From NCBI GenBank assembly GCA_027532905.1, contig JAPZUA010000001.1, positions 851,950 to 915,949 on the forward strand: a DNA stretch of 64,000 nucleotides, in the 5' to 3' direction. Below are positions 31,715 to 34,615 of this stretch, in pieces (the first letter of the stretch is position 1; every line of letters begins with the position of its first letter). Both the position numbers and the translations under genes were made by a program. The notes beneath the pieces are model-generated. The model was not told the DNA's origin, made no database searches, and worked only from the letters and a program-made list of their open reading frames with translations. The DNA is from Magnetospirillum sp. GTDB taxonomy: Bacteria > Pseudomonadota > Alphaproteobacteria > CACIAM-22H2.

Positions 31715-31743
31715 TATATGGACCTGGGAGGGTGCTTCGTCAA
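31715..31743 (-). promoter_or_regulatory. Rubrerythrin operon promoter
   Basis: On the minus strand: -35 TTGACG (31743-31738), 17-nt spacer, -10 CATATA (31720-31715). It is practically the same as the katG promoter at 34564-34592, and shares flanking bases (CTATTGACGA). Confidence 0.85.
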
Positions 31744-31748
31744 TAGCC

Positions 31749-31761
31749 TGGAATCGTTCCA
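31749..31761. promoter_or_regulatory. Irr-box-like palindrome at rubrerythrin promoter
   Basis: TGGAATCGTTCCA, 5-bp arms around a 3-nt centre, placed 5 nt upstream of the -35. It occupies the same position as the perfect Irr-box at the katG promoter. It is a weaker form of the ICE consensus. Confidence 0.65.
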
Positions 31762-31792
31762 AATTTATTTTGAACGATTTGTTATGTTTTGG

Positions 31793-32221
31793 CTATTTCC
31801 GCTCGGATTCGAGGCGAATAACGACCTCGACGCGCGCCACTTTGGTGCCCATCGGGGCCGGCGGCAGGTCGGAAACCGATACTGCATCGACCGGGATGTC
31901 CTGCAGGCGGCGTTCTTCTTCGAAATAGAAATGGTGGTGCGGCCCGATATTGGTGTCGAAATAAGAAATACCAGGGGCGATCACCACTTCGCGCAGCAAA
32001 CCGCTTTGCGTGAATTGGTTCAATGCGTTGTAGACGGTGGCGAGCGACACCGACAGGCCGATTTTTTTGGCTTCGCGCGCCAGATCGTCGGCACTCAAAT
32101 GGCGATTGCCGCCCGCACGCAGCAAATGCAGGAGCTGCACGCGCTGGCGCGTGGGGCGCAAGCCAGCTTCTTTGAGGGCGTCGACCGCCAGGGTGAATGT
32201 CCGATCGCGAGTCATAATCAT
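31793..32221 (-). CDS. irr: Fur-family regulator, Irr type
   Basis: A 142-residue Fur-family regulator. The N-terminal winged helix holds GLRPTRQRVQLLHLL and LSVSLATVYNALNQFTQSGLLREV. The dimerisation domain has SYFDTNIGPHHHFYFEEERRLQDIPVDAV; the HHH triad and SYFDTN context are typical of alphaproteobacterial Irr, which uses haem and is degraded or inactivated with iron. It lacks the Cys pairs of Fur/PerR structural zinc sites. It follows katG across a hairpin, and probably controls the two Irr-box promoters in this window. The alternative name PerR is less likely. Start may be ATG 32215. Confidence 0.82.
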   Translation of the reverse strand: MIMTRDRTFTLAVDALKEAGLRPTRQRVQLLHLLRAGGNRHLSADDLAREAKKIGLSVSLATVYNALNQFTQSGLLREVVIAPGISYFDTNIGPHHHFYFEEERRLQDIPVDAVSVSDLPPAPMGTKVARVEVVIRLESERK

Positions 32222-32278
32222 TTAAATAGGGCAAACCCTTGCGAAAGGGAAGAGGCGGTATCGAGAAACCTAAATCCC

Positions 32279-32307
32279 GCCCGTGCGGTCGGGAAAACCG
32301 CACGGGC
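32279..32307 (-). terminator. Hairpin between katG and irr
   Basis: An 11-bp perfect stem (GCCCGTGCGGT at 32279-32289 with ACCGCACGGGC at 32297-32307) and 7-nt loop, 11 nt after the katG stop codon. On the minus strand the following bases are GGGATTTAGGTTT, a weak U tract. It may end katG transcription partly and lower irr expression. Confidence 0.6.
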
Positions 32308-32317
32308 AGGACCGGCC

Positions 32318-34510
32318 TTACTTCAAGTCGAAGCGGTCGAGTTCCATGACCTTGGTCCAGGCTGCCACAAAATCCTCGACGAACTTGGTCTTGGCGTCGT
32401 TGGCGGCATAGACCTCGGCCAAAGCACGCAGCTGCGCGTTCGAGCCGAACACGAGATCGGCAATCGTGCCGGTCCATTTGCGGGCACCCGAGGTGCGATC
32501 CACACCTTCGAACACGCCTGCCGTGTCGGTCTTTTTCCACTGCGTGCGCATGTCGAGCAGATTGACGAAGAAGTCGTTGCTGAGCACGCCCGGCTTGGCC
32601 GTGAACACGCCGTGCGCCGCCCCGCCCGCATTGGCGCCGAGCACGCGCAAGCCGCCGACCAGCACGGTCATTTCAGGCGCACTCAGCGTCAGCAGCTGCG
32701 CCTTGTCGAGCAGCAATTCGCCCGCAAGCGCTTCGAGGCCCGGCCGCACAAAGTTGCGGAAGCCATCCGCCGTGGGTTCGAGCACGGCGAAGGACTCGAC
32801 GTCCGTATCGGCCTGGCTTGCGTCCATGCGGCCGGGTGCGAACGGCACGCTTGCCGCCACGCCGGCCTTCTTGGCCGCCTCTTCGACCGCCGCGTTGCCT
32901 GCGAGCACGATCAGATCGGCAAGCGAGATCTTCTTGCCGTCCTTCTGCTTGGCATTGAAGCCTTGCTGGATCGCCTCGAGCTTCGCCAGCACGCTCGCCA
33001 GCTGTGCGGGCTGGTTGACCGCCCAATCCTTCTGCGGTGCCAAACGAATGCGAGCACCATTGGCCCCACCGCGCTTGTCGCTGCCGCGGAACGTCGCGGC
33101 CGAGGCCCATGCCGTCTGCACGAGCTGCGCAGCCGGAACGCCCGAAGCCAACACCTGTGCTTTCAGGGCCGCAATGTCCGCCGCATCGACGAGCTTGTGG
33201 TCGACTTGCGGGATCGGGTCCTGCCAGATCAGCGTTTCCTTCGGCACGAGCTTGCCGAGATAGCGCGCGCGCGGCCCCATGTCGCGATGCGTGAGCTTGA
33301 ACCAAGCGCGCGCAAACGCGTCGGCAAACAGCGCCGGATTCTGGTGGTAGCGGCGCGAGATCTTCTCGTAGGCCGGATCCATGCGCAGCGACATGTCGGC
33401 CGTCGTCATCATCGGCGGGTGCTTTTTGCTGGGATCGTGCGCATCCGGGATCATGTGCTCGGGCTTCACGTTCTGGGCGACCCACTGGTGGGCGCCGGCC
33501 GGGCTCTTGGTGAGCGCCCATTCGTAGCCGAACAGCATGTCGAAATAGCCGTTGTCCCACTTGGTGGGATTGGGCTTCCACGCACCTTCGATGCCGCTCG
33601 TTGTGGCGTGCACGCCCTTGCCGGTGCCGAATTTGTTGGCCCAGCCGAGGCCCTGCTCTTCGATTCCCGCACCCTCGGGCTCACGGCCGACGAGCGACGT
33701 GTCGCCCGCCCCATGCGCCTTGCCGAACGTGTGGCCGCCGGCCACCAGCGCGACGGTCTCTTCGTCGTTCATCGCCATGCGCGCGAAGGTTTCGCGCACG
33801 TCGCGGCCCGAGGCGACCGGATCGGGCTTGCCGTTCGGGCCTTCCGGGTTCACGTAGATGAGGCCCATCTGCACGGCCGCGAGCGGGCTTTCGAGCACGC
33901 GATCGCCTGTGTAGCGCTCGTCGCCGAGCCAGGTCTTCTCCGAACCCCAATAGATGTCCTGCTCGGGTTCGTAGATGTCCGGGCGGCCACCCGCGAAGCC
34001 GAACGTCTTGAAACCCATCGATTCGAGGGCGACGTTGCCCGCGAGCACGAACAGATCCGCCCACGACAATTTGCGGCCGTATTTCTGCTTGATCGGCCAA
34101 AGCAAGCGCCGCGCCTTGTCGAGATTGCCGTTGTCGGGCCAGCTGTTCAGCGGCGCGAAGCGCTGGTCGCCGGAGCCGGCCCCGCCGCGCCCGTCGCTGG
34201 TGCGATAGGTGCCCGCCGCGTGCCACGCCATGCGCACCATGAGGCCACCGTAATGACCCCAGTCGGCGGGCCACCAATCTTGCGAGTCCGTCATCAGCGC
34301 CGTGAGATCCTTCACGACCGCGTCGAGATCGAGCGTCTTGAATTCGGCCGCATAGTCGAAATCTTCGCCCATCGGGTTCGAAGCCGGGGCGTGCTGGTGC
34401 AGCATGCCAAGCTTCAATTGGTTGGGCCACCAATCGGCATTCGAGGGGGCGGCCGCAACGGCGTTTTTGCCGACGACATGGTGGAAGGGGCACTTGGCTT
34501 CAGTGGACAT
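32318..34510 (-). CDS. katG: Catalase-peroxidase
   Basis: A 730-residue haem catalase-peroxidase that destroys hydrogen peroxide. The distal site is [16 protein letters not shown] with the Arg, Trp and His; the proximal His is in [10 protein letters not shown]; the Met-Tyr-Trp cross-link is supported by the Trp above, the Tyr in [13 protein letters not shown] and the Met in [15 protein letters not shown]. The ATG at 34510 has GGAG upstream; the upstream 16 codons to 34558 are not used. It has the strongest Irr-box of the window (34593-34615) and is upstream of irr. Confidence 0.98.
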
Positions 34511-34563
34511 CTTGCATCTCCGATTTCGGGTTGGCGCGGCCAAATGCCTCGCTTTCAAGTTCC

Positions 34564-34592
34564 TATATGGACCCGTCCCCGGACGTCGTCAA
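34564..34592 (-). promoter_or_regulatory. katG promoter
   Basis: On the minus strand: -35 TTGACG (34592-34587), 17-nt spacer, -10 CATATA (34569-34564). Nearly identical to the rubrerythrin promoter at 31715-31743. Confidence 0.85.
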
Positions 34593-34615
34593 TAGTTTAG
34601 AATTATTCTAAACTA
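34593..34615. promoter_or_regulatory. Irr-box (ICE-like) at katG promoter
   Basis: A perfect 23-nt palindrome with a 1-nt centre (34604); core TTTAGAATTATTCTAAA. It starts directly upstream of the -35. The core matches the alphaproteobacterial iron control element bound by Irr, and the irr gene is downstream of katG. Confidence 0.8.

Follow-up and report, generated by a model that had tools for sequence, protein, structure and literature searches.

The catalase-peroxidase gene katG and the rubrerythrin gene rbr of a Magnetospirillum genome each stand behind a promoter of the same geometry, with an Irr-type box just above the -35 hexamer, and the gene for the regulator Irr lies between the two promoters. 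By comparative analysis the layout at rbr reads as old and the placement of katG beside irr as young, a distinction that the original prediction for this DNA had missed. The window, meaning the whole stretch of 64,000 nt that was analysed, lies on contig 1 of a 4.26 Mb genome. Within it katG, irr, rbr, a gene for an Fe-S oxidoreductase with a CCG domain (RFO) and a DUF3501 gene are successive on the minus strand, with the following features:

34596..34612, minus strand: Irr-type box of katG, TTTAGAATAATTCTAAA, a perfect palindrome except at its centre; matches the genome pattern
34564..34592, minus strand: putative katG promoter TTGACG-17-CATATA (TTGACG 34587-34592, CATATA 34564-34569); identical layout in L016 and L017
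32318..34510, minus strand: katG, catalase-peroxidase, 730 aa; NCBIfam TIGR00198, 1163 bits, cut-off 770
32273..32313, minus strand: strong hairpin between katG and irr with about 18 pairs and without a T-run; folding energy of the region -45.5 kcal/mol (z -3.6)
31793..32221, minus strand: irr (IrrA), 142 aa, no cysteine, HHH at residues 95-97; NCBIfam NF045678, 181.4 bits, cut-off 150
31769..31783, minus strand: decayed counterpart of a Fur-like palindrome, score 8 of 12
31747..31763, minus strand: Irr-type box of rbr, TTTGGAACGATTCCAGG; matches the genome pattern and is conserved
31715..31743, minus strand: rbr promoter TTGACG-17-CATATA (TTGACG 31738-31743, CATATA 31715-31720); TTGAC spacing conserved
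31203..31631, minus strand: rbr, rubrerythrin without rubredoxin domain, 142 aa; Pfam PF02915, 106 bits
29747..31153, minus strand: RFO, start provisional (longest ORF from 31168); Pfam PF02754
29134..29835, minus strand: DUF3501 protein, start provisional (longest ORF from 29880); Pfam PF12007, 201 bits

The rbr, RFO and DUF3501 genes correspond to the RBR-RFO-DUF3501 cluster of aerobic-type rubrerythrins, in that the rubrerythrin has no rubredoxin domain and has RFO and DUF3501 as neighbours; rbr is the head of this known cluster, a point absent from the earlier note. RFO directly follows rbr in all 60 rbr-bearing loci, and the rbr translation has no cysteine. The published cluster (PMC5114695) shares with the window a rubredoxin-less rubrerythrin followed by RFO and DUF3501; unlike it, the window has Irr and a box at the head, and the words 'Irr', 'PerR' and 'promoter' do not occur in that paper. 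The window Irr is 99% identical to that of the nearest named contigs, from MAGs labelled Rhodospirillaceae and Telmatospirillum.

The original prediction had placed irr between two promoters of the form TTGACG, 17 nt, CATATA, and the minus-strand coordinates at katG and rbr bear this out. It had also let the arms of the palindromes start 5 nt beyond the -35, and the inner arms TRGAANNNTTCYA do end 5 nt before that hexamer at both promoters; the matching flanking bases that it described are likewise present, and the letters CTATTGACGA are the same at both promoters. The 17-mer ends 3 nt from the -35 in both cases; with a transcription start about 7 nt downstream of CATATA, the box centre would fall near -47. 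A sigma-70 promoter scan called no promoter in the region. By our reading CATATA fails the scan's rule for the second hexamer, so the case for these promoters is built on conservation and not on the scan.

To assess conservation at rbr we compared 61 irr-rbr intergenic regions, many from close relatives: the window, 42 of 58 loci and 18 of 20 stretches from further relatives (16 loci with no rbr match beside irr and two stretches ending just after irr were left out). The best palindrome scored at least 10.5 in 55 of the 61, against 0.08 expected from dinucleotide shuffles, and TTGAC followed the 17-mer in 54 of these 55, at 3 nt in 18 and at 4 nt in 36. With the window and the two relatives nearly identical to it set aside, the box was still found in 52/58 regions; after grouping at 70% identity over 90 nt, box and spacing were present in 27 of 34 group representatives. 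A strict composite, box-N5-TTGAC, had seven matches in 96 genomes and none when reversed. Five of the seven precede rbr, another precedes a haem catalase gene, and the last lies between irr and rbr, facing irr. The window's own two sites fall outside this composite, whose flanks and spacing are narrower. At the haem catalase gene (L109, in G088) the composite box and TTGAC lie about 55 nt upstream, which by its sequence marks a further candidate peroxide target with the same layout. The box in 55/61 regions, together with a perfect box before the known Irr target mbfA (see below), argues that rbr is an old Irr target and that its layout is old as well.

The leaders between the rbr promoter and its start codon had features of their own. 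In the window, a terminator-like hairpin followed by CCGTTTTTTA lies at 31665-31684 on the minus strand; hits of this kind were no commoner than in shuffles (5 found, 5.0 expected), the fold of the leader was not unusual (z -0.36), and L016 and L017 have an interrupted T-run. Reyranella-type genomes carry a short hairpin, GAYYGGC-RGATGG-GCCRRTC, right before rbr (16 leaders, e.g., L025:5460-5506, alignment A1). It could be a leader RNA element: at three of its ten predicted pairs, one or more sequences differ in both partners, and one of these three pairs is broken in 3 of the 16.

Of the 55 box-bearing rbr promoters, 38 have a second palindrome, TGCRAANNNTTYKCA, whose centre lies 18-21 bp above that of the Irr box; the original prediction did not mention it. 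It scored 11 or 12 in all 38, while 0.2% of shuffled pieces reached 11; this score is partly circular, because the consensus was drawn from the promoters that it scores, and the constant offset is free of that circularity. The palindrome looks Fur-like, a label that we treat as a lead. No second palindrome was seen at the katG promoter of the window. Searching the window genome for the Fur-like palindrome returned three and three matches, against one and three in the reversed control. Behind three of those sites are genes for a TctC receptor (L181), for a protein with no Pfam match (L186) and for a solute-binding protein (L183). The site at L183 (C1:1110465) lies upstream of a solute-binding gene that resembles part of an iron ABC transporter, the iron label being our own reading.

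The history of katG is different. Among relatives that could be judged (in some the contig ends near irr), katG stands directly before irr only in the window genome and two close congeners (G002 and G003, resembling L017 and L016), where the katG box is retained with changes; in L177 an irr relative, 40% identical, lies near katG. We examined 31 alphaproteobacterial katG upstream regions, made up of 8 of 12 matches from one search and 23 of 30 fetched from a listing of more than 60, with partial genes excluded. The box was present in 15 of the 31, against 0.1 expected. TTGAC came 3-5 nt after the box in seven (the lineage's three, L168, L172, L175 and L177) and was absent at that distance in the other eight. 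The congeneric katG genes L141-L144, whose starts were readable, showed no box, nor did L148, part of a split katG outside the 31 that was judged by eye; just upstream of katG in L143 we read a LysR-type frame on the opposite strand. In L161 (G031) and L168 (G161) a single katG is preceded by a pair of Irr-type boxes, with spacings of about 30 and 45 nt.

In a KatG tree, the window protein grouped with the box-bearing G012 and apart from the box-less congeners (SH-aLRT 96). This grouping suggests that the window katG is probably a different KatG that was already under a box, and not the congeners' gene with a new promoter, although the deep forks are weak. Duplication of the rbr promoter to katG was not supported, as the two 17-nt spacers share little beyond their last bases, GGTC. 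A single origin of the katG box was also rejected: the 31-row KatG tree, in which many forks are weak, implies at least eight state changes.

A pattern derived from the katG and rbr sites, TTTNGAANNATTCNA, was searched over the 4.26 Mb genome, the search with both boxes that the original prediction had proposed. It occurred at four distinct places, with none in the reversed control and 0.13 expected from a single-base estimate. Besides katG and rbr these are a dps-like gene, with the match in its promoter, and a histidine kinase gene, with the match inside the gene. When the 17-mer was allowed up to three mismatches, the search returned katG, dps and one further place, with an equal number of matches in its control. 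The dps-like protein exceeds the Pfam Ferritin threshold and falls below the NCBIfam Dps cut-off. Its box sits between TTGACA and TAATCT and overlaps TAATCT, a position within the core promoter that would be repressor-like and that the original prediction had not noticed; a box also lies upstream of the dps-like gene in three congeners (G002, G003 and G004). With this gene, elsewhere in the genome, included, the target set agrees with the iron/haem and peroxide regulon that had been proposed. An OxyR-type circuit probably stands beside Irr in this genome: a LysR-type gene with a C-x8-C motif is divergent from an AhpC-family gene, followed by ahpD (L111, C1:1552511-1556389), and OxyR is the best model for its product, at 190 bits against a cut-off of 329. 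Rfam gave one match, under its gathering score, which we took as chance.

The palindromes had been called Irr-box-like, and the neighbouring regulator does pass the IrrA model. The sister Irr model NF045677 gave 162.6 bits, under its cut-off of 170, and the Fur and PerR models all fell below their cut-offs; identity as PerR was rejected, the best PerR model reaching 58.3 bits against a cut-off of 200. The HxH haem-binding motif is present, with H95 and H97 found in 77/77 aligned Irr relatives, as is H41; D89 is found in 75/77 and D108 in 76/76. The conservation of these five residues suggests that they form the likely sensor site, where haem or metal would be held. Ten of the 77 relatives have a cysteine in the aligned part. 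The window Irr has none, and therefore lacks a haem regulatory motif of the B. japonicum kind; a review does not generalise that cysteine motif to all Irr proteins (PMC7762939). A perfect box also stands about 20 nt before mbfA in the congener G005 (NCBIfam MbfA, 551 bits, cut-off 450). Since R. sphaeroides Irr is reported to bind the mbfA promoter in vitro (PMC3413700), this site links the motif used here to Irr. Among the matches listed, perfect 17-mers occurred at at least 13 sites in 11 genomes, all of which have an irr match; 64 of the 96 genomes have one overall. This co-occurrence is only suggestive of Irr as the reader, because it covers the listed matches and small genomes often had more control than forward matches.

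Two readings would take the boxes away from Irr. It is improbable, though worth weighing, that they are read mainly by Fur and that the adjacency of irr is incidental. The core GAANNNTTC is, judging from the motifs, common to Fur and Irr sites; Pfam places three Fur-family genes in the window genome, irr included, and one of them (L006) we read as a full-length Pfam match and as Fur itself. M. gryphiswaldense Fur was moreover found at the katG promoter by ChIP and lowers katG (PMC3251581). Against this, rbr boxes have TTTA/TAAA-type flanks, in contrast to the TGC/GCA type of the adjacent palindrome in relatives; they adjoin irr; the known Irr target mbfA has a perfect box upstream; and all 11 genomes with the at least 13 perfect 17-mers listed have an irr match. 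That the palindromes are chance or ordinary promoter sequence is barely credible. The empty sigma-70 scan would suit it, but conservation already contradicts it, with boxes in 55/61 rbr and 15/31 katG regions against 0.08 and 0.1 expected, and the reversed controls were empty for TTTNGAANNATTCNA and the strict composite, if not in the mismatch-tolerant searches.

The original prediction had treated katG and irr as one operon. The two genes are on the same strand with a 96-nt gap that contains the strong hairpin listed above, and hairpins with different letters are predicted in the same gap in L016 and L017. The hairpin may end transcription, protect an mRNA end, or do both. Given a strong hairpin conserved between the genes, co-transcription is probably partial, with some readthrough. 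A general box of irr's own was not supported, as 77 irr upstream regions yielded three matches only; that in L127 is artefactual, since its contig starts within irr, and the other two are weak, at 10.5.

On balance we lean towards a model of repression by haem-free Irr, acting above the -35 at katG and rbr and within the promoter at dps, and lifted by haem or peroxide. In a shortage of iron or haem, haem-free Irr would occupy the 17-bp boxes. Bound 3 nt above the -35 at katG and at rbr-RFO-DUF3501, it would impede RNA polymerase and keep expression of both units low; at dps, where the box takes up the spacer and extends into the -10, repression would be firmer. When haem is plentiful or peroxide rises, Irr would be released or degraded, and KatG, Rbr and Dps, which use or store iron, would be made. 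Because katG, with the promoter layout of rbr, lies directly ahead of irr in the window lineage, readthrough past the hairpin may add feedback on irr.

Precedents support pieces of this model. Haem-free Irr binds ICE boxes and represses or activates by position (PMC7762939). In iron-limited R. sphaeroides, mutation of irr raised ccpA 1.8-fold and mbfA about 8-fold; the ccpA 5' end lies about 40 nt below its box and that of mbfA lies inside its box (PMC3413700). By analogy with these two genes, katG and rbr would be mildly repressed, and dps more firmly, when iron or haem is scarce. Under H2O2, ccpA went down about 5-fold and mbfA up about 9-fold in R. sphaeroides (PMC3413700), so a box abutting the -35 need not mean release by peroxide. 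KatG itself contains haem, and repression under haem shortage would therefore be sensible, though not uniquely so.

A less likely possibility is that Irr activates katG and rbr by contacting polymerase just above the -35, and represses dps from within its promoter. The constant spacing from box to -35 would suit protein contact, two box positions are in use within the window genome, and Irr can activate by position (PMC7762939, citing Rudolph 2006). Direct activation is described in the same review as far commoner for Irr than for Fur or DtxR, and most affected R. sphaeroides genes were lower in the irr mutant, which was taken as an activator function (PMC3413700). The rise of ccpA without Irr in low iron, 1.8-fold and at a similar box distance in that report, speaks for repression, and a spacing of 3, 4 or 5 nt is looser than strict contact predicts.

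We also entertain, tentatively, a stacked operator at the rbr clusters of this part of the Alphaproteobacteria, with a Fur-type site two helical turns above the Irr site that abuts the -35, so that iron status, through iron-loaded Fur, and haem status, through haem-free Irr, would be read on one face of the DNA. The Fur half would have been lost in the window lineage, where a katG carrying just the Irr half would have come ahead of irr, placing the regulator gene inside its own target unit.

Peroxide-controlled pairs of a catalase gene and a neighbouring Fur-family gene are familiar from furA-katG of actinobacteria and from PerR-katA regulons; the window differs in that its regulator is IrrA, with the PerR models far below their cut-offs. 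Rodionov's work of 2006 is said to be the main prediction of Irr sites. Closer is the Irr/ICE regulon of R. sphaeroides, where Irr likewise has oxidative-stress targets, one box lies within the start region of a gene for iron storage, and another lies about 40 nt upstream of where a peroxidase gene starts (PMC3413700). Unlike it, the window has katG, an aerobic-type rbr and a dps-like gene as targets, irr beside two of them, and a conserved spacing from box to -35. The B. japonicum Irr/ICE regulon (bfr, blr7895) similarly places iron-storage and rubrerythrin-like genes under Irr control (PMC3413700 and PMC7762939), and differs in the cysteine haem regulatory motif of its Irr (PMC7762939), whereas the window Irr is without cysteine. 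Among the literature titles and abstract openings listed, none tied Irr to katG or to rbr-RFO-DUF3501, and we claim no priority.

By its sequence, then, the window reads as an addition to the known Irr regulons, with constant geometry at rubrerythrin and a lineage-specific placement of katG. A recurrent promoter geometry would tie the aerobic-type rubrerythrin cluster, and in several lineages KatG too, to the haem-sensing Irr. Repression and activation by Irr become directly testable by box position, and the locus offers a candidate example of a regulator that gained a target through gene placement.
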